Shown here piece by piece: positions 16,687 to 41,363 of a stretch of DNA of 64,000 bases. The stretch is from Deltaproteobacteria bacterium. GTDB taxonomy: Bacteria > Desulfobacterota > Desulfarculia > Desulfarculales > Desulfarculaceae. The stretch covers positions 23,743-87,742 of the forward strand of contig JAHLLJ010000003.1 of the NCBI GenBank assembly GCA_020444205.1, written 5' to 3'. The stretch's first letter is position 1. Every line of letters begins with the position of its first letter. The translations under genes and the position numbers were made by a program. The notes below the pieces were generated by a model. It was not told the DNA's origin and did not search any database. It saw only the letters and a list, made by a program, of their open reading frames with translations.

Positions 16687-17912
16687 GCGCGCACAGCCAC
16701 GCGGCGCCCCTGCAAGGCCGGGCGCGCTTTTGGAGCCCCGGGGCCCTGGTAATGGCCGCCCTGGCCATTACCGGCTTTTTGTTCGTGTTGGGCCGCTACA
16801 CCGGCGGCCTGGGCGCGGTTAGCCATCTTAGCCAGTCCCACCCCTGGGGCCTGTGGATCGGGGTGGATGTGGCCTCGGGCGTGGCCCTGGCCGCCGGCGG
16901 CTTCACCACCGCCGCCCTGGCCCACATCTTCGGGCGCCACGCCTACGAGCCGGTGGTGCGCCCGGCCCTGCTCACCGCCCTTTTGGGATATGTGTTCGTG
17001 TCCCTGGCCCTGTTCGTGGACATCGGCCGCTCCTGGGCCATCTGGAAGCCCATGATCTTTTGGAACTCCAACTCGGTGCTCTTCGAGGTGGCCATGTGCG
17101 TGATGGTCTACACCGCGGTGCTGCATGCCGAGTTCCTGCCCATAGTGGCCGAGCGCTTTAAAGACGGCTTCAAGGCCTCGCTGACCAACCACTCCTGGCC
17201 GGTGGTGGCCCTGGCCGAAGGCGTGGGCGGAGTGCTGACCTTTTTAAACCGCAACCTGAGCAAGGTCATGTGGGCCTTTATCATCGCCGGAGTGGTGCTC
17301 TCGTGTATGCATCAGTCCGGCCTGGGGTCCTTGCTGCTTATCGCCCCCACAAAGATGCACGCCCTGTGGTATACCCCCATCCTGCCCCTGCTGTTCCTCA
17401 CCTCAGCCATCGCCGTGGGCTTCCCCATGGTGGTTTTTGAAAACACCCTGGTGAGCGCATCCTTTGACCTGGCGGACGAGATGCACATCCTCTCACGCAT
17501 GGTGCGCATCACCATCTTGCTTCTGGGCATCTACGGCGCGCTCAAGATCGGCGACGTGATCCTGCGCGGGGTGTGGCCGCTCATCTTCGACGGCTCGGTG
17601 CAGGGCCGCTCCTTTGCGGTGGAGATGCTCTTCGGGGTGATCATCCCCTGGGTCATGTTGCTGTTCCCATGGGCGCGGAATCATCGCACCCCGTTGTTCA
17701 TCGCCGCCTGCCTGGTGGTGGGCGGAGTGATCGTCAACCGCATGAACGTGTTCCTGGTGGCCTTTCAACCGCCTTATCCGGTGCAGTCCTACTTCCCCTC
17801 GGTGGGTGAGTTGGCCATAACCGCCGGATTCATCGCCACTCTCATGCTGGCCTATCGCTTCACGGTTTACTTCTTCCCGGTTCTTTCCCCCGCAGGAAAG
17901 GAGGCCAACTAA
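16683..17912 (+). CDS. NrfD/HybB-like integral membrane quinone-interacting subunit
   Basis: ATGA overlap with Fe-S subunit; multiple TM helices; FHPWGLWIG-like motif (SHPWGLWIGVDVASGVALAAGGF). Confidence 0.88.
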   Translation: MSAHSHAAPLQGRARFWSPGALVMAALAITGFLFVLGRYTGGLGAVSHLSQSHPWGLWIGVDVASGVALAAGGFTTAALAHIFGRHAYEPVVRPALLTALLGYVFVSLALFVDIGRSWAIWKPMIFWNSNSVLFEVAMCVMVYTAVLHAEFLPIVAERFKDGFKASLTNHSWPVVALAEGVGGVLTFLNRNLSKVMWAFIIAGVVLSCMHQSGLGSLLLIAPTKMHALWYTPILPLLFLTSAIAVGFPMVVFENTLVSASFDLADEMHILSRMVRITILLLGIYGALKIGDVILRGVWPLIFDGSVQGRSFAVEMLFGVIIPWVMLLFPWARNHRTPLFIAACLVVGGVIVNRMNVFLVAFQPPYPVQSYFPSVGELAITAGFIATLMLAYRFTVYFFPVLSPAGKEAN

Positions 17913-20128
17913 TGAGTGCCCGCCGCAAGAAATACCTGACCGTGTGGCTGGTGGGGGTCTTGGTTGGCCTGGGCCTGGTGCTCTATGCCTACCAGGGACC
18001 CACCGCCGCCACCCCGGCCGCGCCCAAGCCTTTTGACCCCGTGGCCGCGGCCAAAAAGTGGAAAAAACCGCCGCCGCCTCCCCCGGCCAAAGTGAACCCC
18101 GACGGCACCCCCTGGGTGCCCCTGGACCAAGTGGCCGCTCTCAAGCGGGCCCACCAGGTCCCGCCCTTGGTGGTCAAGGCCTTGGAGGAGAGCCAGCGCC
18201 AGCGCCACCTGCGTCTGGGCGACAAGATGCCCAAGCTGGCGGACATGAAGCACTCCTACCTGGTGCTGGACAGCCCGGTGGTCAACAAAGAGGGCGACAT
18301 GTACGAGGCGGTGCGCTTCATGCACAAAAAGCACGCCGCGGTGCTTCAGGGCCAGTGCTTTACCTGCCACCATGCCAAGCCCGCCACCAAGGACGCCTCG
18401 GAAACCACCCGCTGCGTGGCCTGTCACCAGAGTTCTTTCAACCCTGAGATGCCCGGCCGCCTGGGGCTCAAGGCCGCTTTGCACCGCCAATGCATGGGTT
18501 GCCATGAAAAGCGGGGCCAGGGTCCGGTGGGTTGCACCGACTGCCACGCCAAGAAGGTGCCCGACCACCGCCAGTTGGTGAAGCTGCCGGACAAGCCCGA
18601 CCCCATCACCGTGACCAAGGAGTGCCTGCGCTGCCACCAGGAGCAGGCCGACCAACTCCACAGCGCGGCCCACTGGCAGTGGAAGGGCCCCTCGCCCTTT
18701 ACCGTGGAAGGCGAAAAGCGCATCGACATGGGCAAGGCCACCAACACCATCAACAACTTCTGCGTGGCCCTGCCTTCCAACTGGCCCCGCTGCACCTCCT
18801 GCCACGCGGGCTATGGCTGGAGCAACGCGGAGTTCGACTTCAACGACCAGACCCGCATGGACTGCCTGGTGTGCCATGACACCACCGGCACCTATCGCAA
18901 GGTGCCCATTGCTGCCGGTTGGCCCTTCCTGGAGCTGGACCTCAAGAAGATCGCCCAGAGCGTGGGCCACCCCAGTCGCAAAAACTGCGGCGACTGCCAC
19001 TTCCAAGGCGGCGGCGGCGACGCGGTCAAGCACGGGGACATGAACGGCATCCTCTATTACCCCTCCAAGAACTGCGACGTGCACATGGGGGGCATGGACT
19101 TTGCCTGCCAGGAATGCCACAAGACCCGCAACCACAAGATCAGCGGACGCTCCCTGTCACTGCCCGTGGCCGAGGGTTCGCGCTCCTGTCAGGATTGCCA
19201 CACCGACAAGCCCCACAACGGCAACTCCCTGCTGGATCACCACCTGAACCGCCACGTGGAGCATTTGTTCTGCGTCACCTGCCACAGCCCGGTGTACGCC
19301 AAGTGCCGGGCCACCAAGACCTGGTGGGACTGGTCCAAGGCGGGGCACAAGGAGCGCAAGCCCAAGAAGGATCGCTACGGCATGCCTGACTACGCCTGGA
19401 AAAAGGGCGAGTTTATGTGGAAGGAAAGCATGAAGCCCGCCTATGCCTGGTACAACGGCAAGGTGGAGCGGGTGCTGTTGGGTGACAAGATCGATCCCAA
19501 AAAGGTGGTGAACATCACCAAACCGGTGGGTGGCTTCCGCGACCCGGCCAGCCGTATCTATCCCTTTAAGCTCATGGAGGGCATCCAGGCGGCCGACGCC
19601 AAGAACCACCTGCTGCTGGTGCCCCACCTTTTTGGCCCCGGCGGCTTTTGGGCCACCATAGGAAAGACCAAGGCCCCGGTGCCGGAGGTGGCCATCGATA
19701 AGGCCTGGCACAAGGCCTTTGCCAAGGGCATGGCCGAGGCCATCAAGGTGAACCCGAACAACCAGGGGCTCAAGCCCTACAGCGGCCAGTATGAGTGGGT
19801 CAAGACTCGCATGTACTGGGGCCTGACCCACGAGACCATGCCCGCCAAGGCGGCGTTGGGCTGCGCTCAGTGCCATGAGTCTCTGGCCCAGGAAAAGACC
19901 TGCTGCCGCTGCCACACGGACCAGCGCCACGTGGACTTCAAGAAGCTGGCCCACCGGGGCACGGACTTCGAGTGGATGAAAAAGCAGGGCAGGGATGTGC
20001 AGGATCTGATCGGCAAGACCGACTACCTGAACTTTAAGGCCCTGGGCTACAAGGGCGACCCCATTGTCTACGGCGGCCGCCTGAAGAAGCTGCCCCTGGC
20101 CAGCACCATTGACCGGGAGTGCAAATAG
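17912..20128 (+). CDS. Membrane-anchored multiheme cytochrome c (13 CXXCH), octaheme tetrathionate reductase (OTR)-like core
   Basis: 13 CXXCH motifs counted; segment NCGDCHFQGGGGDAVKHGDMN...NCDVHMGGMDFACQECHKTRNHKISG resembles OTR-family cytochromes; single N-terminal TM. Confidence 0.88.
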   Translation: MSARRKKYLTVWLVGVLVGLGLVLYAYQGPTAATPAAPKPFDPVAAAKKWKKPPPPPPAKVNPDGTPWVPLDQVAALKRAHQVPPLVVKALEESQRQRHLRLGDKMPKLADMKHSYLVLDSPVVNKEGDMYEAVRFMHKKHAAVLQGQCFTCHHAKPATKDASETTRCVACHQSSFNPEMPGRLGLKAALHRQCMGCHEKRGQGPVGCTDCHAKKVPDHRQLVKLPDKPDPITVTKECLRCHQEQADQLHSAAHWQWKGPSPFTVEGEKRIDMGKATNTINNFCVALPSNWPRCTSCHAGYGWSNAEFDFNDQTRMDCLVCHDTTGTYRKVPIAAGWPFLELDLKKIAQSVGHPSRKNCGDCHFQGGGGDAVKHGDMNGILYYPSKNCDVHMGGMDFACQECHKTRNHKISGRSLSLPVAEGSRSCQDCHTDKPHNGNSLLDHHLNRHVEHLFCVTCHSPVYAKCRATKTWWDWSKAGHKERKPKKDRYGMPDYAWKKGEFMWKESMKPAYAWYNGKVERVLLGDKIDPKKVVNITKPVGGFRDPASRIYPFKLMEGIQAADAKNHLLLVPHLFGPGGFWATIGKTKAPVPEVAIDKAWHKAFAKGMAEAIKVNPNNQGLKPYSGQYEWVKTRMYWGLTHETMPAKAALGCAQCHESLAQEKTCCRCHTDQRHVDFKKLAHRGTDFEWMKKQGRDVQDLIGKTDYLNFKALGYKGDPIVYGGRLKKLPLASTIDRECK

Positions 20129-24292: not shown

Positions 24293-24766
24293 ATGGCTCA
24301 GGACATTAACCAGGTGAATCTTTTGACCCGCCGTGAGATCGAGGCCCGCACCGCCGGGCCCCTGATCGAGCAGTTTATTGAGGCCATGGGCAAGGACAAG
24401 GCCTTGGCCGAGGTGGACAAGGTGGTGCAGCGCCTGGCCGGGGAGGCCGGGGCCCAGATGGCCCAAACCCTGGGCGGCAACACCATGGAGCATTTCCACA
24501 AGGCTCCGGACATGTGGAAACAGGGTGGGGCCCTGGAGATCGAGCTTGAGGAGATGGACAAGGACAAGCTGGTTTTCAAGGTCACCCGATGCCGCTACGC
24601 CGAAATGTATCGCGAATTAGGCTATGAGGAGCTCGGACAGGTCCTTTCCTGCGGAAGGGACGCGGCCTTTGCCCAGGGGTTCAATCCCGGCATCCGCATG
24701 ACCCGCACCCAAACCATCATGTCCGGCGGGAGCCATTGCGATTTCAAATTTGAGTTAGTGAGATAG
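24293..24766 (+). CDS. L-2-amino-thiazoline-4-carboxylic acid (ATC) hydrolase family protein
   Basis: RCRYAEMYRELGYEELGQVLSCGRDAAFAQGFNPGIRMTRTQTIMSGGSHCDFKFE resembles the ATC_hydrolase family signature. Confidence 0.75.
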   Translation: MAQDINQVNLLTRREIEARTAGPLIEQFIEAMGKDKALAEVDKVVQRLAGEAGAQMAQTLGGNTMEHFHKAPDMWKQGGALEIELEEMDKDKLVFKVTRCRYAEMYRELGYEELGQVLSCGRDAAFAQGFNPGIRMTRTQTIMSGGSHCDFKFELVR

Positions 24767-24828
24767 TAAAGGGTAAGCATCAGGAGAAGACTCACTGGTT
24801 GAACCAAATAAGCGGAAAGGTAGGAAGC

Positions 24829-25827
24829 ATGCGAAAACCTAAGTCCAAACTAATCGGGATCATCGCTATCGCGGTGTTGTGTCTGGCTCTGAGCGGCCAG
24901 GCCATGGCCGCCGACTCCGGCCCCCAGAAACTGTCCTTTGCCACCTTCAAGAGCGGCAGCGGCTGGTACATCATGGCCCAGACCATGGGCAAGATCATGC
25001 TGGGAGCCCTGCCCAAGGGAACCACGGTTGACGTGCTGCCTTACAGCGGCGGCGTGGGCAACCCCATGCTGCTGGCCAAGGGCAAGGCCAATATCGCCCT
25101 TGGCTTCCCGGTGGAGACCGGCCAGGCCATCAAGGGTGAGTCGCCCTACAAGACCAAGGCGCCTGGGATTAAGATGCTGGTGGGCAACCTGGATACCTAT
25201 TGGTACCTGTTCTCCGTGCGCGGCGACGTGCCGGTAACCAGCTTCGAGGAACTCAAGGCCAAAAAGTTCCCCCTGCGCCTGGTGCTGCTGCCCAAGGGCT
25301 CCAGCGGCGAGTGGGCCACCAAGACGGTGCTGGGGGCCTATGGCATCACTTATGAGGACATCGAGTCCTGGGGCGGCAAGGTCACCTTTGTTTCCTTCCC
25401 CACCGCCGTGGAGATGATGAAGGACGGCCAGGCCGACGCCTTTGCCCACGTGTCCACCCCGGGTCACCCCTCCTGGACCCAACTTGCCACCCTTACCAAG
25501 ATCCGCTTTTTGCCCATGGGCGCCAAAGTGGGCGCCAAGCTGGTGGGCAAGTACGGCTACCGTATGAGCACCCTGCCCAAGGGCGCCTTCCGGGGCGTGG
25601 AAAAGCCGGTGCAGGTGCTGGGCTTCGCCACCCTGCTCATGGCCACCGACAAGATGCCTGAAGACATCGCCTACAAGATCACCAAGGCCGTCTGCGAAAA
25701 CCGCGACGAGCTGGTGGCCACCTACAAGGGCGCCGGCGCTTTCCGGCCCCAGAACGCTCCCGACGTGCCCCTGCCCCTGCACCCCGGAGCCAAGAAGTAC
25801 TACAAGGAAGTCGGCTACATCAAGTAG
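24829..25827 (+). CDS. TAXI-family TRAP transporter solute receptor
   Basis: Signal peptide; GPQKLSFATFKSGSGWYIMAQTMGKIM; C-terminal LHPGAKKYYKEVGYIK. Confidence 0.9.
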   Translation: MRKPKSKLIGIIAIAVLCLALSGQAMAADSGPQKLSFATFKSGSGWYIMAQTMGKIMLGALPKGTTVDVLPYSGGVGNPMLLAKGKANIALGFPVETGQAIKGESPYKTKAPGIKMLVGNLDTYWYLFSVRGDVPVTSFEELKAKKFPLRLVLLPKGSSGEWATKTVLGAYGITYEDIESWGGKVTFVSFPTAVEMMKDGQADAFAHVSTPGHPSWTQLATLTKIRFLPMGAKVGAKLVGKYGYRMSTLPKGAFRGVEKPVQVLGFATLLMATDKMPEDIAYKITKAVCENRDELVATYKGAGAFRPQNAPDVPLPLHPGAKKYYKEVGYIK

Positions 25828-25848
25828 AGGATGACCTGCACGGGTGAA

Positions 25849-25875
25849 GGCCCCCGGTCCCTTGGACCGGGGGCC
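25849..25875. other. Perfect hairpin without T-tract between SBP and permease
   Basis: GGCCCCCGGTCC-CTT-GGACCGGGGGCC. Confidence 0.75.
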
Positions 25876-25899
25876 GCGCCCTACCAAGGATCACGCGGT

Positions 25900-27774
25900 A
25901 TGCAACTCACGGCCAAAAGTTACGTTATATCCACGGTGGCAATAGCCTGGTCCGTAGTCCAGCTCTATAACTCCATCACCTTTGACCTGGATATCCTGCA
26001 GCTAGAGTTCATGCACCTGTCCTTTGCCCTGATCTTGGCTTTCTTGCTCAAGCCGGGACCAGCCAAGATTAATCAAGGCAATTGGTCGGACTATCTGCTG
26101 GCCCTGGCTTCCTGCGGGGCGGGCGTGTACATGATGGTCAGCTACACCAGGATCGCCGAGCGCATCCGTTTCGTCTCCGACGTGGAGATGGGCGATGTGG
26201 TGGTGTGCGTGGTCCTTATTTTCCTGGTGCTGGAGGCTGGGCGCCGGGTCATGGGTTGGGGGCTTACCATCCTGGGCCTGGTGGCCATCGGCTACGCCTT
26301 CTTCGGTTTCCTTTTGCCGGGCAACGTGGGCCACAGCTCGGTGACCGGCGAGAGCTTCACCGAGTTTATGGTGCTCACCCAAGAGGGCATCTTCGGCATA
26401 CCGCTGAGGGTTTCCACCATATACGTTTTCTTGTTCGTGCTCTTCGGGGCCTTTTTAAAGTACGGACGCCTGGGTGAGTTTTACAACGACCTGGCGGTAT
26501 CCGTGGCCGGCGGCCTCAAGGGCGGCCCGGGCAAGGTGGCGGTGATCAGCTCCAGCCTGTTGGGAACCATCAGCGGCAGCGCGGTGGCCAACGTCTCCAC
26601 CTCGGGCACCTTCACCATCCCCATGATGAAGCGGGCCGGTTATCAACCGGCCTCGGCCGCGGCCATCGAGGCCCTGGCCTCCACGGGCAGCCAGATCGTG
26701 CCGCCCATCATGGGCGCGGCGGCCTTTATCATGGCCGAGCTAACCCAGATTCCCTATTGGTCCATCGCCGTAGCCGCCATCATACCCTCTGTCCTGTACT
26801 ACGTGGTGGTGTACTCGGTGGTGCACTTTGAGGCAGTCAAGCACAACCTGGAAACCTCGGATGATGACCGCAAGGGCTTCTGGAAGATGGCCCTGGCCAA
26901 GAGCTACATGTTCATCCCGGTAGTGGTGATCGTCTACTACCTGTCCGCGGGCTACTCCATCACCCTGGCCGCCACTATGGCCATCTTGAGCGCGGTGGTG
27001 GTCTCGGCCATACCCATAGCGATAAACCGCCAATGGAAAGAGTTCGGCCTGTTCGTCAAGGCCCTGGAGGACGGGGCCAAGGCCTGCGTGGCCGTGGCCA
27101 TACCCTGCGCCATAGCGGGCATCATCGTGGGAGTGCTCACCCTGACCTCCCTGGGGCTCAAGTTCAGCGACCTGATCCTGGCCTATGCGGGCGACAGCAT
27201 AGTGTGGCTTTTGATCATCACCTCGCTGATCTGCATGGTGCTGGGCATGGGCATGCCCACCAGCGCGGCCTATATCACCGTGGCCATTCTGGCCATTCCC
27301 GCCTTGGTAAAGGGCGGGGTGCCGGTGATCACCGCCCACTTCTTCGGCTTTTTCTTCGCCAACCTGTCCATGATTACCCCCCCGGTGGCCTTGGCCGCCT
27401 ATGCCGGGGCGGGCATCGCCGGGGCCAACAGCTCCCAGGTTGGCCTTAGGGCCTGTTGGATGGGCCTGACCGTCTACGCCATCCCCTTCCTGTTGGCCAC
27501 CTATCCGGGGCTTATGCTCATAGGCGGCTGGCCGGAAATAATCTTCGACCTGGTGAAGGTGGCGCTTATTGTTGCCAGTTTTTCCGCCGCGATCATGGGA
27601 GTTTTCAGCGCGCCCCTCAAGGGCTACCAGCGCGGGCTCTTTTTTGGGGCGGGAGTTGTATTGTGGGCCAGCCTGTCTTCGCTGGTCCTGAACGTGGTCG
27701 GCTTCGCAGTGTTGGCGGCCGCCTTATTTTGCGCTTACAAGTTTCGCCCGGCCCAACCAGCCGCAATGGGCTAG
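25900..27774 (+). CDS. TRAP transporter fused permease (DctQ-DctM type)
   Basis: Multiple TM helices; TRAP DctM motifs (SGSAVANVSTSGTFTIPMMKRAGYQPASAAAIEALASTGSQIVPPIMGAAAF). Confidence 0.93.
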   Translation: MQLTAKSYVISTVAIAWSVVQLYNSITFDLDILQLEFMHLSFALILAFLLKPGPAKINQGNWSDYLLALASCGAGVYMMVSYTRIAERIRFVSDVEMGDVVVCVVLIFLVLEAGRRVMGWGLTILGLVAIGYAFFGFLLPGNVGHSSVTGESFTEFMVLTQEGIFGIPLRVSTIYVFLFVLFGAFLKYGRLGEFYNDLAVSVAGGLKGGPGKVAVISSSLLGTISGSAVANVSTSGTFTIPMMKRAGYQPASAAAIEALASTGSQIVPPIMGAAAFIMAELTQIPYWSIAVAAIIPSVLYYVVVYSVVHFEAVKHNLETSDDDRKGFWKMALAKSYMFIPVVVIVYYLSAGYSITLAATMAILSAVVVSAIPIAINRQWKEFGLFVKALEDGAKACVAVAIPCAIAGIIVGVLTLTSLGLKFSDLILAYAGDSIVWLLIITSLICMVLGMGMPTSAAYITVAILAIPALVKGGVPVITAHFFGFFFANLSMITPPVALAAYAGAGIAGANSSQVGLRACWMGLTVYAIPFLLATYPGLMLIGGWPEIIFDLVKVALIVASFSAAIMGVFSAPLKGYQRGLFFGAGVVLWASLSSLVLNVVGFAVLAAALFCAYKFRPAQPAAMG

Positions 27775-27881: not shown

Positions 27882-29324
27882 ATGGCTAAAAATTTGAGGA
27901 CATATCTTGAGCAACTGGAGAAGGAAAAGCCGGAGGTGATCCTTAGGGTGGAAAAGCCCATGAAGGTCGCCTACGAAATTTCCGCGCTGCAGCGTAAACT
28001 GGACGCCTTGCGCAAGTATCCGGTGATCATCGTTGAAAACCCCATCCTGGACAACGGCGAGAAAAGCGAGTTCCCGGTGGTGACCAACCTCACCGCCAGC
28101 CGCGAGCTGTGCGCCGAGGCCCTGGGCCTGGACCATCGCCGCATTGCCATGGACTATGCCGAAAAGATGTCCCACCGCCTGGATCCCATCGAGGTGTCCA
28201 GGGACGAGGCTCCGGTCAAACAAGTGAAAGAGACCGGCGAGGACGTGAACCTCTTAAAGTTCCCCATCCTCACCCACAACTACATGGACCCCGGCCCCTA
28301 CATCGGCACCGGCTTTGTGTGCAACTACGACCCGGACACCGGCGTGGACAACTGCTCCTTGCAGCGCATATGGGTGAAAAGCCCCCGGCGCACCGGCTAT
28401 TGGCCGGCGGTTACCAGCCATAGCATGCAAAACATTTGGAAGTGGTGGGGCAAGGGCGAGGACATGCCCGTGGCCATATGGATCGGGCACCACCCGGCGG
28501 GCATCTCCGGCGCCCAGTCGCGCCTGGGCTACCCGGTTAGCCACTACCCCTCCATGGGCGGGGTCATGGGCGAGCCGGTCAAACTGGTGCCCAGCGAGCT
28601 GTTCGGCAAGGACATTATGGTCCCGGCCGACGCCGAGATGGTCATCGAGGGCTACGTTCCCCGCGAGGTGTTCGAGGCCGAGGGCCCCTTCGGCGAGTAC
28701 CCCGGCTACATCGGTCCCCAGCGTCCCAGCCCGGTTATCGACGTCAAGTGCGTGACCTATCGCAAGGACGCCATCTACCACGGCATCGGGGTTGGCCTGG
28801 CCGACCACCTGGTGCTTCTGGGCAACTTCCCCTTGGAGGCGCGCATCTACAACGTGGTCAAGAGCGTGGTCCCCGAGGTGATGAACGTGTTCGTGCCCAT
28901 CTCCGGGCGGCGCAACCACGTCTACGTGCAGGTCAAGAAGACCCGGCCCGGCATCGGCAAGGAAGTCATCATGGCCACCCTGCCTTGCGACAGCCGCCTG
29001 AAGCACGTGTTCGTCATCGACGAGGACATGGACCTGTTCAACGAGAGCGACATCATGTGGTCGGTGGCCTACCGCAGCCAATGGGACCGGGACCTGGTGG
29101 TGGTGGAAGGCGCGGCGGTGTTCCCCTTGGACCCCAGCGTCCCCTCGCCGGGCAACATCGGCACCCGTGGCGGCATCGACGCCACCATGCCTCCGCCCAT
29201 TGGCAACGGACTGCCCCGTTTCTACCAGATGGTCAACAAAACCCCCGAGGATGTGGCCGAGGCCATACAGCTCGAGGACTTCGTGGACCCCGACCTGTTG
29301 GGCAATTACCCCACCTCTTCCTAG
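27882..29324 (+). CDS. UbiD-family decarboxylase
   Basis: EVFEAEGPFGEYPGYIGPQRPSPVIDVKCVTYRKDAIYH; catalytic ExxxxE (EGPFGE) and SLQRIW arginine retained. Confidence 0.93.
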   Translation: MAKNLRTYLEQLEKEKPEVILRVEKPMKVAYEISALQRKLDALRKYPVIIVENPILDNGEKSEFPVVTNLTASRELCAEALGLDHRRIAMDYAEKMSHRLDPIEVSRDEAPVKQVKETGEDVNLLKFPILTHNYMDPGPYIGTGFVCNYDPDTGVDNCSLQRIWVKSPRRTGYWPAVTSHSMQNIWKWWGKGEDMPVAIWIGHHPAGISGAQSRLGYPVSHYPSMGGVMGEPVKLVPSELFGKDIMVPADAEMVIEGYVPREVFEAEGPFGEYPGYIGPQRPSPVIDVKCVTYRKDAIYHGIGVGLADHLVLLGNFPLEARIYNVVKSVVPEVMNVFVPISGRRNHVYVQVKKTRPGIGKEVIMATLPCDSRLKHVFVIDEDMDLFNESDIMWSVAYRSQWDRDLVVVEGAAVFPLDPSVPSPGNIGTRGGIDATMPPPIGNGLPRFYQMVNKTPEDVAEAIQLEDFVDPDLLGNYPTSS

Positions 29325-29348
29325 GCGGGGCTGAAAAGGATAGACGTC

Positions 29349-29531
29349 ATGATCACTATAGAGAAGGTTGGAAACCCCAAGGACGTCTGGGTCACCTGCC
29401 CGGGCTGCAAAGAGCTCTACTACATTGACCGGCTTTTCTACGAGCCGCAGTATGACAAGATCCCGTTGCACTGCCCCTTCTGCCACCTGGAGTTCGCCAA
29501 AGAGGACTCCCCCATGACCTGGGGCGAGTAG
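29349..29531 (+). CDS. Small double-CxxC zinc-ribbon protein (60 aa), UbiD-associated
   Basis: VTCPGCKELYYIDRLFYEPQYDKIPLHCPFCHLEFAKEDSP; paralogous to the 39029-39256 product; directly downstream of ubiD. Confidence 0.8.
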   Translation: MITIEKVGNPKDVWVTCPGCKELYYIDRLFYEPQYDKIPLHCPFCHLEFAKEDSPMTWGE

Positions 29532-29685: not shown

Positions 29686-30951
29686 ATGAATCGCAGCGGT
29701 TATTATCGCTGGTTGCTGATGGGCGCGGCGGTATGCGTGAAAATGATCATCAGCATCTACCAGTACTCCTGGTTCCTGTTCGCCTTTGCCATCGCCCAGG
29801 AAGAGGGCTGGTCCCCGCAGCAGTTGGGCCTCACCTTCACGGTGCTCATCTTGGCCGCCACCCTGGTGCAACCCTTTTCAGGCCTGTACGCCGACGCCGC
29901 CGGGCCCCGCAAGCCCTGCCTGCTGGCGGCCTGCCTGGTGGGCGCGGGCATGCTGGCCGCCTCCTACGCTGCCAGTCCTTGGGAGTTGTGCCTGTATTAC
30001 GGCTTGGGCGGCCTGGGCGTGGGGGCGCTGAACGGCATCTCCACCGCCACCTCCCTCAAGTGGTTTCCCCTTAAAAGGGGCCTGGCTACCGGGGTGGTGG
30101 AGTTTGGCTTTGGAGCCGGCACTTTGTTTTTCAACTTCTTCCTCCAGGACAGCCTGGAGCTTGTCGGTTGGCGGGAAACGTTTTGGTTCCTTTCGCTGGC
30201 CATGGCCGTGGTACTTGTGCCCCTGGCCCTGCTCTACTCCTACCCCCCCGCGGATTGGGAGCAGCGCCTGAGAGCCCGGCGGCCGGGAGGGCACGCCGCT
30301 TCGCGGCCCGCCTCGGCGCAGTACCGGCCGGTGCAGATGGTGGTCACCCACCAGTGGCAGATAATCTACCTGGGCTTTACCCTTATAATCGCCACAGTGC
30401 TGATGTTCGCCTCGCACCTGAAAATGATCGCCCAGGAATTCGGCATAAGCGGCTCGCTGTTCGCCTTCGTGATGGTGGCTTTTCCATTGGGCAATGGCTT
30501 CAGCCGCATTGTGGGCGGGCTGGTTTCGGACTACCTGGGCCGGGAAAGAACCATGCTGCTGTTCTTCAGCCTTTTGGGGCTGTGCATGCTGTCCCTGGGG
30601 CTTTTCGGCACCCAGCCATGGCTGTTCGTGGTAGTGGTGTTCTTGGCCGGGCTGTTGGGGGGCGCGCCCTTTGTGCTCTACGCGGCCATGGTGGGCGACT
30701 ATTTCGGGGCGGGCAACGCCACGGCCAACTGGGGGCTTACCATAACCGGCAAAGCCTGGGCCGGGCTTATCGCCGGATGGTTCAGCGGATTCTTGGTGTC
30801 CCTGTCGGGCACCTACCAGACCCCGCTCCTGGTGCTGGCCCTGTGTTGCTTTGTGGCCGCGGCTCTTTCCAGCCCCCGGCTGCTCAGGAATCCCGGCCCG
30901 CCGGGCCGCAACGCGGCTCCGGCCACGGCCGGGCCAGGCGGCCAAAGTTAA
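29686..30951 (+). CDS. MFS transporter (OFA-like)
   Basis: 12 TM pattern; SLKWFPLKRGLATGVVEFGFGAGTLFFNFFLQ. Confidence 0.87.
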   Translation: MNRSGYYRWLLMGAAVCVKMIISIYQYSWFLFAFAIAQEEGWSPQQLGLTFTVLILAATLVQPFSGLYADAAGPRKPCLLAACLVGAGMLAASYAASPWELCLYYGLGGLGVGALNGISTATSLKWFPLKRGLATGVVEFGFGAGTLFFNFFLQDSLELVGWRETFWFLSLAMAVVLVPLALLYSYPPADWEQRLRARRPGGHAASRPASAQYRPVQMVVTHQWQIIYLGFTLIIATVLMFASHLKMIAQEFGISGSLFAFVMVAFPLGNGFSRIVGGLVSDYLGRERTMLLFFSLLGLCMLSLGLFGTQPWLFVVVVFLAGLLGGAPFVLYAAMVGDYFGAGNATANWGLTITGKAWAGLIAGWFSGFLVSLSGTYQTPLLVLALCCFVAAALSSPRLLRNPGPPGRNAAPATAGPGGQS

Positions 30952-30980
30952 CCTGACGACTCTTGGCCAGGAGGATAATC

Positions 30981-31547
30981 ATGGCTGACAACGCCAAACC
31001 AATCATCGTGGGCATCACCGGAGCCAGTGGAGTCATTTACGGAGTGCGCCTGCTGGAGGTGCTGCGGGACCTGGGCCGAGAGACCCACCTGGTCATGAGC
31101 GACGCCGCCCGGCTTAACCTGACCATCGAGACCAAGTACCACCCCCACCAGGTGGAGTCGCTGGCCAGCAAGGTCTACCCGGTGGGAGATATGGCCGCGG
31201 CGGTTTCCAGCGGCTCGTTTCTCACCGAAGGCATGGTCATCGCTCCCTGCACCATTAAGACGCTTTCGGCGGTGGCCAACTCCTTTAACTACAACCTTAT
31301 CGTGCGCGCCGCCGACGTGTGCCTTAAGGAGCGCCGCCGGTTGGTGCTGATGGTGCGCGAGACTCCCCTGCACGCCGGGCATCTCAGGCTCATGTCCCAG
31401 GCGGTGGAGATAGGGGCCACCATCCTGCCGCCTATTCCGGCCTATTACCACGGCCCCCAGAGCATTGCCGACCTCATTGACCAGAGCGTGGGCAAGACCC
31501 TGGACTGTTTCGGCATTGAGCATCAACTATTCAAGCGCTGGTCATGA
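30981..31547 (+). CDS. ubiX: UbiX-family flavin prenyltransferase
   Basis: IIVGITGASGVIYGVRLLEVL; APCTIKTLSAVANSFNYNLIVRAADVCLKERRRLVLMVRETPLHAGHLRLM; RBS AGGAGG. Confidence 0.95.
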   Translation: MADNAKPIIVGITGASGVIYGVRLLEVLRDLGRETHLVMSDAARLNLTIETKYHPHQVESLASKVYPVGDMAAAVSSGSFLTEGMVIAPCTIKTLSAVANSFNYNLIVRAADVCLKERRRLVLMVRETPLHAGHLRLMSQAVEIGATILPPIPAYYHGPQSIADLIDQSVGKTLDCFGIEHQLFKRWS

Positions 31548-32018: not shown

Positions 32019-32657
32019 TTGCCGGAAAGGAAGGCAAGGTTGGACCCCAGAGAAATATTTGAAGATCTCAAACACCGGGTCGTCAGCCTGGACATAGAGC
32101 CGGAGGCCAATCTTAACCTGAGCGATCTGGCTGCCTACTACGGGGTCAGCCGTACCCCGGTGAAGGAAGCCATCATATACCTGGAGGCCGAAGACTGGGT
32201 ATACCGCAATGGCAATCACTTCACGGTCAGCCCCCTGACTCTGGACCGCATGCGCGACACCACCGAGATACGTCTGATTTTGGAGGTGGAGGCCAACGTA
32301 CTGGCTCTGAGACGCATGACTCCGGATACCTTGGCCATCTTGGACCGGATCCTGGAAAAAATATCCAACCTGGACAAGGTGGAGGACAACCAGGAGTTGT
32401 CGCGCTTGGACACGGAGTTTCACCGCGTGCTCTACCAGGCCACGGGCAACAAGCAACTGGCCGCCCTGCTGGAGCGCATGCTCTCCGGTTATCTGCGTTT
32501 TTGGCGCTCCCGGCCGAAGAACGTCATGAGCGGCAGCTTTTTTCATCAGGCCCAAGAAATCATCAAGGCCATCAAGGACAAGGACGAGGCCAAGCTGCGC
32601 GAGCTGAGTGTGACTCATATTATGCAGTCGATGAACGCCATCATGGGCATGTACTAG
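32019..32657 (+). CDS. GntR-family regulator (FCD domain)
   Basis: LSDLAAYYGVSRTPVKEAIIYLEAEDWVYRNGNHFTV winged HTH and helical FCD C-terminus. Confidence 0.88.
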   Translation: MPERKARLDPREIFEDLKHRVVSLDIEPEANLNLSDLAAYYGVSRTPVKEAIIYLEAEDWVYRNGNHFTVSPLTLDRMRDTTEIRLILEVEANVLALRRMTPDTLAILDRILEKISNLDKVEDNQELSRLDTEFHRVLYQATGNKQLAALLERMLSGYLRFWRSRPKNVMSGSFFHQAQEIIKAIKDKDEAKLRELSVTHIMQSMNAIMGMY

Positions 32658-34863: not shown

Positions 34864-36774
34864 CTATTCGGGAATTACGGTTAAGGGGGATTTTTTTCTC
34901 CGGTATAGCTGCCAAAGCACCAGCAGGGCCAAAAGGGCCAGCCCAACCAGGCTGTATGCCTTTACCGGCATGATCAACAAAATGCCGATTACAAAAGCCA
35001 GGCCGCGCTCGGGGGCGTTGAGCTTGCCCAGCAGGTAGCCCACCCCGGACACCGCAAAGCAGCCCGCGCCCACGATGGCGGTGCTCATGTCCAAGGCCAT
35101 CTTGCCGATGGGGCCCTCCAAGAGCAGGCTCTGCTCATAGGCAAACATGAAAGGCACCACAAAGGCAACAATGCCTATGCGGGTGGCGGTCCAGCCGGTT
35201 TTCCAGCCGTCGGCTCCGGCTATGGCCGCGGCGGTAAAGGCCGCGGCGGCCACCGGCGGGGATATGAGCGACAGGCAGGAGAAGTAAAAGGCGAACAAGT
35301 GGGCCACGTGGGCGGGAAGGCCCATGGCCATCAGGGCGGGTATTACCGTGGCCACTTGCACAATGTAGGCCGGGGTGGTGGGCATACCCGCGCCCAAAAC
35401 CAGGGCGATGACCATGGCCATCAAAAGGCCTAGAAGCAGGTGTCCTCCAGCCAGGTCCACAAACACGGTGCCCAGGCGGTTGCCCAGACCGGTGAGGTCC
35501 ACGCTGCCCACGATGATGCCCGCTGCCGCGGTGGAGATGGTCACGATGAGCATGCCTCTGCAGCCCGCTTCCAGGGCGTCGAGTATGCCCGCCGCGTTGA
35601 GGCGGGTGGTGGGCCGGAATTGGCAGATGACCAGGGCCGAGACCACGCCCACCCCTCCGGCCAGGCTGGGGGTGTAGCCCGCCACCAGCATGTAGACCAG
35701 CAAGCCCAGGGGAATGAGCATGTGGCCATAGTCGCGCATGGTCTGGCTGGGGGTGACGTCCACCTTGAGGCCGGGCAGGCGGTGCTTGCGGGCCTCCAGG
35801 TCCACGGTGATGAACACGCTGATGAAATAAAGCACCGCCGGGAACAGGGCATAGTAGATGATGGTGGAATAGGGGATGCCCGAAAAGGCGCTCATCACAA
35901 AGGCCGCCGCGCCCATTACCGGAGGCATGAGCTGCCCGCCGCAGGAGGCCACCGCCTCTACCGCTCCGGCAAACTCGGGGCGGTAGCCCGCGTTTTTCAT
36001 CATGGGGATGGTCACCACGCCGGTGGTGGCCACGTTGGCCGCGCCGCTGCCGGTGATGGTGCCCATTAGCGAGCTGGCCACTACCGCCACCTTGGCCGGG
36101 CCGCCCACCATGTTGCCGGTGAGGGTGGTGGCCAGGTTGCTGAAAAGCTTGGCCCCGCCGCTGTGCAAAAGCACCGCGCCGAAGATCACGAACAGGGCGA
36201 TCTCGGTGGCTGACACTCCCAGGGGGATGCCGAAGATACCGCCCAGGGACAGGTAGTTGAAGTCCACTATGTCGCTGAAGGTCAGGGGAGAGGTGTGGAA
36301 AGCTCCCCAAAGATAGGGTCCGGCAAAGGGATAAAGTAAAAAGGCCAGCACCACGAAGAACAGGCCTTTGTTGAACATGCGCCGGGTGGCCTCCAGCACG
36401 ATGAGCACCACGGCGATGCCCAGGATCATCTCCCAGGCCGAGAGTTTGCTGATGAGCGGGAAGCGCTCCTCGGTGACCCAGTCGTAGTTGAACACCAGAT
36501 AGGCCGTGGCCGCGGCGGAGAAGGCCAAGAATATCCAGTCAAGCCAAGAGGGGCGGGGCTTGCTTTTGGCTTTTATCAGGCCGGGCCGCACCAAGAACAG
36601 GAGGATCAGGCCCAGGCCCAAGTGAATGGAACGTTGAATCAAGGCATCAAAGGCCCCGAACAGGGCGGTGTATATCTGGAACAGGGCCAGCACCAAGGCC
36701 ACCAGGGTGGCGCATTTGGCTTCCCAGGATTTGCCGCCCCAATACTCACGCCAGCTTTTGCGCTGCTCAATCAC
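34864..36774 (-). CDS. TRAP transporter fused permease
   Basis: TM-rich; SGAANVATTGVVTIPMMKNAGYRPEFAGAVEAVASCGGQLMPPVMGAAAFVM; probable GTG start 36774 overlapping upstream TGA (GTGA) with RBS AGGAAC. Confidence 0.92.
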   Translation of the reverse strand: MIEQRKSWREYWGGKSWEAKCATLVALVLALFQIYTALFGAFDALIQRSIHLGLGLILLFLVRPGLIKAKSKPRPSWLDWIFLAFSAAATAYLVFNYDWVTEERFPLISKLSAWEMILGIAVVLIVLEATRRMFNKGLFFVVLAFLLYPFAGPYLWGAFHTSPLTFSDIVDFNYLSLGGIFGIPLGVSATEIALFVIFGAVLLHSGGAKLFSNLATTLTGNMVGGPAKVAVVASSLMGTITGSGAANVATTGVVTIPMMKNAGYRPEFAGAVEAVASCGGQLMPPVMGAAAFVMSAFSGIPYSTIIYYALFPAVLYFISVFITVDLEARKHRLPGLKVDVTPSQTMRDYGHMLIPLGLLVYMLVAGYTPSLAGGVGVVSALVICQFRPTTRLNAAGILDALEAGCRGMLIVTISTAAAGIIVGSVDLTGLGNRLGTVFVDLAGGHLLLGLLMAMVIALVLGAGMPTTPAYIVQVATVIPALMAMGLPAHVAHLFAFYFSCLSLISPPVAAAAFTAAAIAGADGWKTGWTATRIGIVAFVVPFMFAYEQSLLLEGPIGKMALDMSTAIVGAGCFAVSGVGYLLGKLNAPERGLAFVIGILLIMPVKAYSLVGLALLALLVLWQLYRRKKSPLTVIPE

Positions 36775-39029
36775 GGGTTGCCGTTCCTTTGCTCCCGCCG
36801 CCGGCGGTTGAGAATCTGCCACAGGGTTTCAGCGGAAACCGGGTTGCGATAGGTGTACTCGCCCAGGGCGGCGGCCACCGCGTTGTGCACTGCCGGGGCG
36901 GTGGGCAACAGGGCGGGCTCGGCCACGCCCTTGGCTCCGTAGGGGCCGGTGGGCTCGGGCTCCTCCACCACGCGCACCACCACCTCGGGAGCGGGCCAGG
37001 CGTGGGGGAGCTTGTAGTCCAGGAAGTGGGGGTTGGTGATGCGTCCTTTGTCCAAGAGCACTTCTTCGCTGAGCGCGTAGCCCAGGCCCATCATGGACGC
37101 GCCTTGGATCTGGGCGGCCAGGTTCACCGGGTGGATCACCTTGCCCACGTCATGGCAAGCCACCAGGCGCAGCACCTCGATGCGGCCGGTGAGCTTTTCC
37201 AACGCCACCTGCACCGCGTGCACCGCAAAGGCATAGGTGGCATAAGGCGCGCCCTGGCCGGTTTCCGGATCAAGCTTGCGGGTGGGCGGGTCAAAGGTGC
37301 CCTCCACCTGCAAGGGCTCGCTTAAAAAGCGCGCCGCCGCCTGTTCCAGGGAGAGGCTATCGCCGTCCACCCTCAGACAGCCGTCTTGCCAGCCAACCTC
37401 GCCGGAGGCCGTGGCCTGTTTGGCCAGCTCCACCAGGCGCTCGCGCATGGCCGCTCCGGCCCTTTTCACCGAGCTGCCCACCACATAGGTGAGGCGGCTG
37501 GCGGTGGAGGTACCGCTATTAGGGCAGGCCGCGGTGTCCCCGGCCAATATATCCACCTGAGTGGGCTCCAGGCCCAACTCCTGGGCGGCGATCATGGCCA
37601 TGGTGGTTGATGCGCCCTGGCCGCCGTCGCCGGTGCCGATCCTCAGGCTAATCGAACCATTGGGGCTAAGAATGATGCGGGCCACCCCCGGGTTGGGTAG
37701 GCCGGTAAGGCCGATGCCGTAGTGAGTGGAGCCCATGCCCCAGGCAGTGAGCCAGTCCGGGTCGCTTTCCCGGGGGTGGGGAGGAAGCTCGCTTTTGGCC
37801 TGCTCCACCTGGTCCAGGCATTGGCTCATGCCTACCGAGGCGGTGAGCTGTTGCCCGGCGGCGGTGCTGTCGCCGGGCTTGAGGAAGTTGATGCGCCTGA
37901 TCTCGGCCGGGGTCTTGCCGCAGGCGGCGGCCAACAGATCCATCTGGCACTCGTGGGCAATGGCCACCTGGGGCACCCCAAAGCCGCGCATGGCTCCGCA
38001 CACCGGGTTGTTGGTGTAGGCCAGGCGGGCGTGCACCTCAACGTTAGGCAGGTTATAAGGCCCGGCGCAGTGCACCACCGAGCGGGTGATGATGGAGGGG
38101 CCGTAAGAGGCGTAGCAGCCGGTGTCGGCCAGAATCTCGGTTTTTATGGCCTTTAGGCGGCCGTCCTGGTCCGCCCCGGTGGTCATGGTCACCACCATGG
38201 GGTGGCGCTTGGTGCTTACCTGAAAGGACTCCTCGCGGCTGTAGGTCATGCGCGCCGGGCGGCCGGTGAAAAAGGTGGCCATGGCGCAGTAGTAGCCCGG
38301 TGAGAGGCATTGTTTGTCCCCAAAGTAGCCGCCCATGGTGGCGCAGATGATGCGTAGGCGCTCTGGCGGCAGGCCCAGCACCCGGCCCAGCTCGCCTTGC
38401 TCAAAGTGGGCGTGCTTGGTGGGCAGCTTGACCACCAGCACATCGCCTTCCCACCAGGACAGACCGGCCTCGGGCTCCAAATAGGCGTGCTCCATCATCT
38501 GAGTGCGATAGGTGCGCTCAATGACGATGTCGCAATCTTGCAGAGCATCCGCGCCCCGGCCCTTGCGCAGGCTGCGGGTGAACACCAGGTTGGCCTCGCC
38601 GTTGACCACCGGCGCGCCGGGGGCCAGGGAGTCCTCGGCGCTGAATACGCCGGGCAGCTTGGCGAAGCTCGGCTTGATAAGCTCGACGGCGGCCTGGGCC
38701 TCTTCCAAGGTCTTGGCGGCCACCAGGGCCAGGGGATCGCCCACCCGGCGTACCTTGTCAAAGCACATCACCGGCTCGTCCTTGATGCGCGGGCCCACCA
38801 GGCGCTCGCCGGGTATGTCGTCCGCGGTCCACACCCCCTTCACGCCTGGCGCGGCCTTGGCCGCGGAGGTGTCTATGCCTTTTAGCTCGGCATGGGGCTC
38901 ATGGGAGCGGGCCACGGCCAGGTGCAGGGCGCCTTCGGGCTGGTGGTCCCCTGCATAACGGACCTTGCCGGTTACCTTGTCCCAGGCATCGGGTTTGAGA
39001 ACTGGACGGCCAATGCTGTCAATGGCCAT
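36771..39029 (-). CDS. Xanthine dehydrogenase/aldehyde oxidase family molybdopterin-binding (large) subunit
   Basis: VTGKVRYAGDHQPEGALHLAVARSHEPHA; GGYFGDKQ; CGAMRGFGVPQ; GAKGVAEPALLPTAPAVHNAVAAALG. Confidence 0.92.
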   Translation of the reverse strand: MAIDSIGRPVLKPDAWDKVTGKVRYAGDHQPEGALHLAVARSHEPHAELKGIDTSAAKAAPGVKGVWTADDIPGERLVGPRIKDEPVMCFDKVRRVGDPLALVAAKTLEEAQAAVELIKPSFAKLPGVFSAEDSLAPGAPVVNGEANLVFTRSLRKGRGADALQDCDIVIERTYRTQMMEHAYLEPEAGLSWWEGDVLVVKLPTKHAHFEQGELGRVLGLPPERLRIICATMGGYFGDKQCLSPGYYCAMATFFTGRPARMTYSREESFQVSTKRHPMVVTMTTGADQDGRLKAIKTEILADTGCYASYGPSIITRSVVHCAGPYNLPNVEVHARLAYTNNPVCGAMRGFGVPQVAIAHECQMDLLAAACGKTPAEIRRINFLKPGDSTAAGQQLTASVGMSQCLDQVEQAKSELPPHPRESDPDWLTAWGMGSTHYGIGLTGLPNPGVARIILSPNGSISLRIGTGDGGQGASTTMAMIAAQELGLEPTQVDILAGDTAACPNSGTSTASRLTYVVGSSVKRAGAAMRERLVELAKQATASGEVGWQDGCLRVDGDSLSLEQAAARFLSEPLQVEGTFDPPTRKLDPETGQGAPYATYAFAVHAVQVALEKLTGRIEVLRLVACHDVGKVIHPVNLAAQIQGASMMGLGYALSEEVLLDKGRITNPHFLDYKLPHAWPAPEVVVRVVEEPEPTGPYGAKGVAEPALLPTAPAVHNAVAAALGEYTYRNPVSAETLWQILNRRRREQRNGNP

Positions 39030-39256
39030 CAGCTCTCCTCCTCAACGGGGCGGTAGATGGTTTCCTTGGTGAGCCCGCCGGGCACCTTGGCCACCGCGGC
39101 CGAATTGGCGTTGCCGGTTATCACCAGGGGACTGTTCTCTTTGTAGAAGTACACGCCGCAAAAGGGGCAGTGCAGCTCCACCGGCAGGGAGTAGAGCAGC
39201 ATGTCCGCGTAATACTCGCGGCCGCAGGAGGGACAGGTAACGCTGAAGATGTCCAT
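39029..39256 (-). CDS. Small double-CxxC zinc-ribbon protein (75 aa), UbiD-associated
   Basis: VTCPSCGREYYADMLLYSLPVELHCPFCGVYFYKENSP; paralogous to 29349-29531; TGATG overlap with next CDS. Confidence 0.8.
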   Translation of the reverse strand: MDIFSVTCPSCGREYYADMLLYSLPVELHCPFCGVYFYKENSPLVITGNANSAAVAKVPGGLTKETIYRPVEEES

Positions 39257-39257
39257 C

Positions 39258-40646
39258 TCAGCCCTCCAGGTAATCGTCGAGGTTCAGGTTTTGCCGCAGC
39301 TCTTTGGGCACCTCCCCCCGCCGGGGAAAGGGGCGGTCCAGGGGCCGGGTGGCGTCGATGACCATGCCCGAAGTCTTGATCTCGTGGCGTAGGCTCGGGT
39401 CCAGCACCTGGCCTTGCAGGTTTCTAAGGATGCTCAGGTCCTGGTCGGCCTGCACCCGGCTGGACAGGGCCCACATGACCTGGGTGAGGTCCTCGGGGTC
39501 CACATCGTCGTCCACCAGGATCACGTGCTTTATGAAGTTGCTGGCGCTGATGGCGGCCAGGGCGGCGCGCATGGGCTCGCCCTCGGTTTTCTTTTTCAAG
39601 CTGATGATCATATTGAACGGACCGCCCGAGCCCACCCAGCAGGTTTTGACCACGCCGGGGGCGGCCTGCTTGGCCCGCTGGTAGATGCTGGCCTCGATGG
39701 GCAGGTGAGCGTTCATGTGCTCGGAGTAGCAGGGGAAGATGTCGATGATGGTGGGGCGCGCCTTGCCGTAGACCGCGCTGATTTCCACCACCCAGGACAG
39801 GCGCTGAGGGCCGGCATAGCCGGTGAACTCGCCAAAGGGGCCTTCCACGCAGCGTTTGCCCGCCAGGATGCGCCCTTCCAAAACCAGCTCAGCCTCGGCA
39901 GGAACCAAAAGCTCCTTGCCGAAGCTCAGCGAGGGAATCAGTTCCAGGGGCTCGTTCATGACCCCGCCGGCCACCGCGTATTCATCGGCCTCCAGGGGGG
40001 TGAGCAGGGCTCCGGTGAGATGGAAAGCGGGATGGTGGCCCAGCACCACCGCGATGGGCAGGTCGCGCCCGTCGGCCTCGGCCTCGGCGAAGTAGGCTGA
40101 TAAATGGCGCGGGGACATGTAGATGGCCAGGTGGTTGGGGTCCAAGTACTGCATGCGGTTCCAGGAGACGTTATAGCGCCCCTGGGGAGTGCGGCTCACC
40201 ACGATGGGGGTGAGGTAGGGGCCGCCGTCCAGCTCGGTGTGGCGGATCAGGGGCAGGCGGGTCAGGTCTACCGCCTCTCCCTGCTGGGCCCATTGGCGCA
40301 CCGGGGCATCGCCGGGCTCCACCATCACCGGTTCCAGGCTACGGCCGGACAACTGAAGCATGCGCTCCATGAGGGGCATGCGTTGGTCGGTGTCCATGCC
40401 CAGGGCCAAGGCTATTTTCTTGAAGGTGCCAAAGGTGTTGTTGAGGATGCGGCAGTCGGTGGGGCGGCCCTCGAGGTCGCGCACCTGCTCAAAAAGAACC
40501 GCCGGGTAACGCTTCTGGTGCTCTAGAGCGTCCACCACCGCGGCGCTTTCAAAACTGGCGGGCTCCACCGGGCGGCGCACCGTCACCAGCTCCTGGGGAG
40601 CCTCGGCAGCCAGCCGATCCAGCCAAGATGTCAGATTCATTCCCAT
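39258..40646 (-). CDS. UbiD-family decarboxylase
   Basis: EGPFGEFTGYAGPQRLSWVVEISAVYGKARPTIIDIFP; SWNRMQYLDP; IVVHQDHV-type C-terminal. Confidence 0.92.
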   Translation of the reverse strand: MGMNLTSWLDRLAAEAPQELVTVRRPVEPASFESAAVVDALEHQKRYPAVLFEQVRDLEGRPTDCRILNNTFGTFKKIALALGMDTDQRMPLMERMLQLSGRSLEPVMVEPGDAPVRQWAQQGEAVDLTRLPLIRHTELDGGPYLTPIVVSRTPQGRYNVSWNRMQYLDPNHLAIYMSPRHLSAYFAEAEADGRDLPIAVVLGHHPAFHLTGALLTPLEADEYAVAGGVMNEPLELIPSLSFGKELLVPAEAELVLEGRILAGKRCVEGPFGEFTGYAGPQRLSWVVEISAVYGKARPTIIDIFPCYSEHMNAHLPIEASIYQRAKQAAPGVVKTCWVGSGGPFNMIISLKKKTEGEPMRAALAAISASNFIKHVILVDDDVDPEDLTQVMWALSSRVQADQDLSILRNLQGQVLDPSLRHEIKTSGMVIDATRPLDRPFPRRGEVPKELRQNLNLDDYLEG

Positions 40647-40661: not shown

Positions 40662-41363
40662 CTATTGCCAGAAGGTGGCCATCTGGGTTACGTGGCGGGT
40701 CATGGCCTCCTGGGCTGCTTTGGGATCGCCTTCGCGCACTGCTTCAAAAATTTCGACGTGTCCATCCAGGCCAAGGCTGCGGTTGTCCGAGGGCAGGCGG
40801 CGCTGACGCACGTTGGTGTAGACCAAGGGAACCAAGGCCCGCGCGATCAAGTTGAGCACCGGATTGCCGCAGGCGTCGGCCAGGGCCAGGTGAAAGTCCA
40901 AATCGCGGATGCTGCGCGCCAAGTCCTGCTCCACCACTTCCCGGTACTTGGTTATGGTTTCTTTTAGGCGGGCCACGTCTTGGGCGGTGGCCAATTGGGC
41001 GGCTTGGCGGGCCACGTGGGGCTCGATGATAAGGCGAGCCTGGGTGAGGTCGGCAATGCTGGCCTGGCCCAAACGCAGCATCAGGGTTAGGGCCTCGCCC
41101 ACCGGCTCGGGGCTGGGCTCACAGACGAATACCCCCCCGCCGGCTCCCCGGCGGCTGGTCAACAGGCCCATTTGCTGCAGGCTTATCATGGCCTCGCGCA
41201 CCGGCACCTTGCTCACCCCCAACTGGCGGGCCAGCTCGTTTTCCGTGGGCAGGCGATCGCCCACCTTCAACTCTCCGGCCAGGATCAAATTGGTGATCTG
41301 CTCCCGAACCCCGTCGGAAACTCTACCCTGCTTGACGCTTTCCAAAGATATCTTGGTGGTCAC
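40662..41363 (-). CDS. GntR-family regulator (FadR subfamily, FCD domain)
   Basis: LKVGDRLPTENELARQLGVSKVPVREAMISLQQMGLLTSRRGAGGGVFV. Confidence 0.93.
   Translation of the reverse strand: MTTKISLESVKQGRVSDGVREQITNLILAGELKVGDRLPTENELARQLGVSKVPVREAMISLQQMGLLTSRRGAGGGVFVCEPSPEPVGEALTLMLRLGQASIADLTQARLIIEPHVARQAAQLATAQDVARLKETITKYREVVEQDLARSIRDLDFHLALADACGNPVLNLIARALVPLVYTNVRQRRLPSDNRSLGLDGHVEIFEAVREGDPKAAQEAMTRHVTQMATFWQ

Follow-up and report, generated by a model that had tools for sequence, protein, structure and literature searches.

Some UbiD enzymes are little active without small accessory proteins, the known ones being VdcD, LpdD and the small subunit of phenylphosphate carboxylase, which share no similarity with one another (PMC8379154). 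VdcD (ShdD), on which activity depends, holds one zinc through two CxxC pairs and associates 1:1 with VdcC in a hexamer (PMC8379154). LpdD, another small protein associated with UbiD, forms a dimer resembling Pba3/4, binds prFMN in its reduced form and helps UbiD to become active; prFMN itself requires oxidative maturation (PMC10865409).

The 64,000-nucleotide stretch of DNA analyzed here (the window) holds two ubiD genes, each with a small gene encoding a presumed zinc ribbon at its 3′ side. The products of ubiD A (27882-29324, + strand; PF01977, E=2.7e-56) and ubiD B (39258-40646, − strand; PF01977, E=2.6e-48) are UbiD (de)carboxylases of 480 and 462 residues that keep the Arg-Glu-Glu triad. 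Ribbon A, a 60-residue protein recognized from its ORF, the family alignment and an AlphaFold2 model, is encoded at 29349-29531 on the + strand; its ATG lies 24 nt past the ubiD A stop codon (29322-29324) and 8 nt past the end of a ribosome-binding-like AAGGA read from the sequence (29336-29340, + strand), and its Cys pairs are residues 17/20 and 42/45. Ribbon B (39029-39256, − strand; ORF and alignment) has 75 residues and a C-terminal tail that ends in IYRP, and it starts 1 nt past the ubiD B stop codon (39258-39260). The first-pass annotation had read a motif shared by these two products and had placed both ORFs immediately 3′ of ubiD; both points hold, given the short gaps behind genes that match PF01977 and an above-chance match of ribbon B (E=1.2e-8) when ribbon A is used as a genome-wide query. 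The two ribbons are ~45-50% identical, with an invariant CPxC...CPFC plan. A third copy, on contig C5 of the same assembly (4.4 Mb, 342 contigs), is found by this query at E=3.3e-30 and is likewise 3′ of a ubiD that shares 81% identity with ubiD A, and three of the four UbiD genes of the host genome carry a ribbon. In the alignment of the three genomic copies 18 columns are invariant, all four Cys included. Among genus orthologues dN (~0.01-0.30) is far below dS (0.3-2.8), so the ribbon ORFs behave as real genes, and they are under purifying selection.

The surroundings of the two pairs differ. Cassette A comprises a nitroreductase, an ATC hydrolase-like protein, TAXI/TRAP transport, ubiD, ribbon, MFS, ubiX, Rid and GntR/FCD genes. 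On its + strand we find a TAXI-type TRAP solute-binding protein (24799-25827; PF16868), a putative fused TRAP permease that reads in translation like fused 4TM/12TM proteins (25831-27774), an MFS transporter between ribbon A and ubiX (29686-30951; PF07690), a UbiX-type flavin prenyltransferase, the maker of the prFMN cofactor (30963-31547; NCBIfam TIGR00421 and PRK06029 over cut-off), and a GntR/FCD regulator identified by a profile match (32019-32657). The product of 24293-24766, adjoining the nitroreductase, resembles L-2-amino-thiazoline-4-carboxylate hydrolase (PF14196). Cassette B comprises GntR/FCD, ubiD, ribbon, a xanthine-dehydrogenase-type molybdenum subunit, TRAP and a TAXI protein; its regulator (40662-41363, − strand; profile match) lies upstream of ubiD B, and the molybdenum large subunit directly follows ribbon B (36771-39029, − strand; PF02738/PF20256/PF01315), its pucD-like match staying below cut-off. 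Beside this last gene there are no genes for FAD or 2Fe-2S subunits. Judged by their gene content, both cassettes look like inducible units for the uptake and conversion of aromatic or heteroaromatic carboxylates. Elsewhere in the window (17810-20125), an octaheme cytochrome of the tetrathionate reductase family (TIGR04315 over cut-off) is encoded after an NrfD-like gene.

The described system that the ribbons most invite comparison with is VdcD/BsdD/ShdD (NF041205; PDB 7ae4), likewise small, built on a CxxC...CxxC plan and encoded by the gene immediately 3′ of a UbiD gene; like it, the ribbons are presumed to be zinc ribbons and partners of UbiD. Two CxxC knuckles are present throughout the ribbon family, the Cys pairs of ribbon A are 21 residues apart as in VdcD, both have an aromatic residue and acidic residues behind the second pair, and the conserved Pro-containing C-terminal tail of the B-type ribbons recalls the Pro-rich tail through which VdcD contacts VdcC. 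The ribbons nevertheless lack the Trp-Arg...Glu signature that follows the second CxxC of VdcD, and although 85 of 86 of them share the UbiD-adjacent gene position of vdcD, the neighboring UbiD is not of the VdcC type: VdcC/ShdC is remote from the ribbon-linked UbiD clade described below, with many ribbon-less UbiDs in between. Model NF041205 has no match in the host genome at E<=1 and is absent from the NCBIfam matches of 14 ribbon members at E<=0.1, hhalign gives a probability of 5.4% for 53 ribbons against nine VdcD sequences, and the 50 top Foldseek matches listed for ribbon A do not include ShdD. Homology to VdcD was rejected on the NF041205 and hhalign results, and the initial impression that the ribbons differ from BsdD is thereby borne out, their cognate UbiDs also falling in a different clade from VdcC. 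Together, the hhalign comparison and the UbiD tree indicate that a zinc ribbon was most likely recruited to UbiD a second time, independently of VdcD. LpdD, also a small UbiD-associated accessory protein, is set apart by its other fold and its lack of a CxxC plan, as follows from its description (PMC10865409).

Nor do the ribbons belong to another named family in the libraries searched. Generic zinc-ribbon models of Pfam and NCBIfam match them below cut-off only, the closest being YnfU (NF038384), MJ0042 (TIGR02098) and Zn_ribbon_4 (PF13717); ribbon A scores 12.2 bits against TIGR02098 (cut-off 20.9) and 15.2 bits against PF13717 (cut-off 30.3), and the best of the 14 members reach E=5.1e-5 and E=1.4e-4, respectively. 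A comparison of the ribbons with an MJ0042-type set by hhalign gives 97%, a value that is partly circular because the set was retrieved by the ribbon profile; the Pfam and NCBIfam matches are independent of it. Most of the MJ0042-type matches in this survey are parts of longer proteins encoded at a distance from ubiD, unlike the ribbons, which are stand-alone and tied to ubiD. The search for a clear match to an unrelated family thus yields only this distant relation to MJ0042/Zn_ribbon_4. Identity with rubredoxin or a ribosomal ribbon was rejected, all such matches being subthreshold (rubredoxin PF00301 against ribbon B, 14.2 bits, cut-off 23; Foldseek, E ~0.5). Searches of the PDB with the ribbons gave nothing credible, the top profile matches having been dropped as multi-finger proteins with scores summed over repeats, and a Foldseek search with the AlphaFold2 model of ribbon A (built with 53 relatives; pLDDT 79) gave no significant match. 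In an AlphaFold2 model of a ubiD A-ribbon A read-through fusion (56 sequences; pTM 0.84), in which the ubiD A stop codon is read as Gly purely as a modeling device and which serves as a readout of fold only, the ribbon is well formed (pLDDT 78-93) and the UbiD part matches HmfF, with a TM score of 0.95 on the target. HmfF, a 2,5-furandicarboxylate decarboxylase (6h6v), is the closest solved relative of both UbiD A and UbiD B; it differs in lying just outside the ribbon-linked clade, and no ribbon adjoins its relatives in the sample, L081 and L180.

With profiles made from the ribbons we searched relatives (98 genomes), a spread across the phylum (395) and the class of genome G253 (148), a survey of ~570 Desulfobacterota genomes in which members were found by sequence alone, neighbors ignored. 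The pooled, nonredundant family occupies 89 places. Three lie at contig ends, and 85 of the 86 with enough flanking sequence adjoin a ubiD, so that homologs are not mostly found away from ubiD; 83 are directly 3′ of it on the same strand and two directly 5′. At the 83 loci the spacing ranges from a 38-nt overlap to 249 nt, its end points being the last UbiD sense codon and the first position of the profile match. As a control, none of the 19 MJ0042-type ribbons caught by the same profile is beside a ubiD. Family members are stand-alone proteins of 48-105 residues, and the four Cys are invariant in the 53 that were aligned. A separate contig scan returned four ribbon loci, all in near relatives; two queries found no ribbon in a plasmid collection, and the UbiDs on plasmids of aerobes leave no room for one. 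The single unlinked ribbon, L065 (1087-1248, G253:C69), has a nearly identical twin in L066, a linked ribbon, and a ribbon-less sister of the L066 UbiD, L219 (G253:C156), is encoded in the same genome, which makes it plausible that L065 acts in trans on a UbiD of G253. L065 ends an operon that, as read from translation, encodes xanthine-dehydrogenase-like FAD and 2Fe-2S subunits and an enoyl-CoA hydratase-like protein. At L078 (5388-5777; G006:C1 near 2888461), a cassette has decayed with an N-terminal UbiD remnant and the C-terminal half of a ribbon still together.

A tree of 138 sampled UbiDs and two structural references places all 76 ribbon-linked UbiDs in one clade of 87 tips (SH support 0.993), with 10 further tips lacking a ribbon and one undetermined; of the 51 sampled UbiDs outside the clade, none has a ribbon downstream, in a sample that is not a census, since ribbon-positive loci were fetched via their ribbons and ribbon-negative ones were drawn from top Pfam/profile matches. 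As a partial remedy for this bias, a UbiD profile was run against four genomes: above 520 bits, 13 of 17 matches have a ribbon directly downstream, and two of the four exceptions are in genome G543, beside a ribbon-bearing subclade; among the next-ranked loci, 13 were examined and one has a ribbon downstream, and another UbiD of this rank, L212, lies just 3′ of the ribbon at G096:C252. UbiD and ribbon distances are correlated with r=0.94 over 73 pairs and with r=0.45 for pairs whose UbiDs are <60% identical, where the highest value among 2000 permutations is 0.15; shared species history contributes to this correlation, which thus supports an interaction and does not prove one. Genomes G253, G548, G559, G096, G546 and G543 each encode 34-64 UbiD family proteins, an unusually large expansion. 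The UbiD-rich genomes have only one to six ribbons each, and most of their UbiDs are without one. The Arg-Glu-Glu triad is substituted in 16 of the 76 ribbon-linked UbiDs (to THD, RCD, RND, KVE, KCE or KEE). Substituted loci include L064, L136-L139 and L142; L077 and L144-L146; and also L024, L026, L039 and L129. At several of them a second UbiD follows the ribbon, with REE intact in each of the nine second UbiDs so placed; substituted and intact UbiDs may, to judge by this pairing of genes, form heteromeric complexes.

We consider it probable that ribbon A is a small subunit of UbiD A, of MJ0042 kind, recruited once and independently of VdcD, and that it supports the active prFMN state of the enzyme. 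The first-pass annotation had proposed a distinct accessory or structural subunit of UbiD, and this proposal gains support from the linkage, the restriction to one clade and the lack of a named family. These observations, along with the co-variation of ribbon subtype with UbiD subclade, the purifying selection and the lack of detectable VdcD homology, describe the genes directly; the role of the protein is drawn by analogy, the precedent for a zinc-ribbon subunit being the 1:1 binding of VdcD to VdcC that activity requires (PMC8379154). We posit that the ancestor of one UbiD clade recruited a CPxC/CPxC zinc ribbon of the MJ0042/Zn_ribbon_4 kind, which has since co-evolved with its partner. Ribbon A would bind the UbiD protomer, its metal, to go by the Cys plan, would be zinc, and, like VdcD with VdcC, it would support the prFMN enzyme in its catalytically competent state. 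The 10 clade members without an adjacent ribbon imply that the ribbon is not strictly obligatory or acts in trans, and the substituted triads imply that its function goes beyond the one suggested for VdcD, namely to order the Glu-Arg-Glu residues; a role in loading or oxidizing the prFMN cofactor is possible.

Such a role need not be that of a lasting subunit. The ribbon could be a maturation factor that helps UbiD to acquire or mature prFMN, as proposed for LpdD, which assists activation and binds the reduced cofactor (PMC10865409); the apparent action in trans for one UbiD of G253 and the UbiX gene in cassette A would fit, and we regard this reading as unlikely but worth retaining. LpdD, however, is a Pba3/4-like dimer and not a zinc ribbon, and the one-to-one pairing of ribbons with UbiD subclades, together with the presence of up to six ribbon paralogs per genome, is easier to reconcile with a dedicated subunit than with a shared chaperone. 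That most of the many UbiDs in the same genomes make do without a ribbon also argues against a maturation factor.

Considerably less probable is a redox role, in which the four Cys bind iron and the ribbon, as a rubredoxin-like electron acceptor, serves the oxidative maturation of prFMN without oxygen. We know of no identified agent of anaerobic prFMN oxidation, and most bacteria in the phylum of the hosts are anaerobic; a redox partner of one UbiD clade, enabling strict anaerobes to oxidize prFMN to the active iminium without O2, would meet the need for oxidative maturation, yet we give this idea little credence. It draws on the CPSCG...CPFCG knuckles of B-type ribbons, on weak Pfam matches of rubredoxin type (PF00301, E=0.045; PF21349, E=0.003) and on the presence of rubredoxin B among the top, nonsignificant Foldseek matches. 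Against it, the spacing of the Cys pairs is within the range of zinc ribbons and below that of rubredoxins, the MJ0042 zinc-ribbon class is the nearest neighbor among the profiles, none of the fold matches reaches significance, and conservation does not extend to the Gly that follows the second Cys in each knuckle.

Slightly less probable still is that the ribbon is an unrelated small zinc-ribbon protein, for example a regulator or an RNA-binding protein, that merely shares the operon. Many MJ0042-type ribbons with other functions do exist, but 85 of 86 ribbons of this family are linked to ubiD, in operons with differing other neighbors (MFS/UbiX in cassette A; a xanthine-dehydrogenase-type enzyme and TRAP in cassette B), and among the sampled UbiDs they are restricted to a single clade. 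Finally, a diverged ortholog of VdcD/BsdD is the least probable reading of all: the same gene position, similar size and four-Cys plan, the 21-residue gap of ribbon A and the aromatic and acidic residues after the second pair favor it, and extreme divergence from a common ancestor is conceivable for such short proteins, but the silence of NF041205, the hhalign probability and the distance of VdcC/ShdC from the ribbon-linked clade, with ribbon-less UbiDs between, all speak against it.

With ribbon A as a dedicated small subunit, the ribbon family would provide the partner gene so far missing for an entire clade of UbiDs of anaerobes, including those in genomes with 34-64 UbiD paralogs. If this is true, these UbiDs expressed without their ribbon would yield poorly active enzyme, which offers a testable recipe for characterizing them, and zinc-ribbon activation of UbiD would have arisen at least twice.
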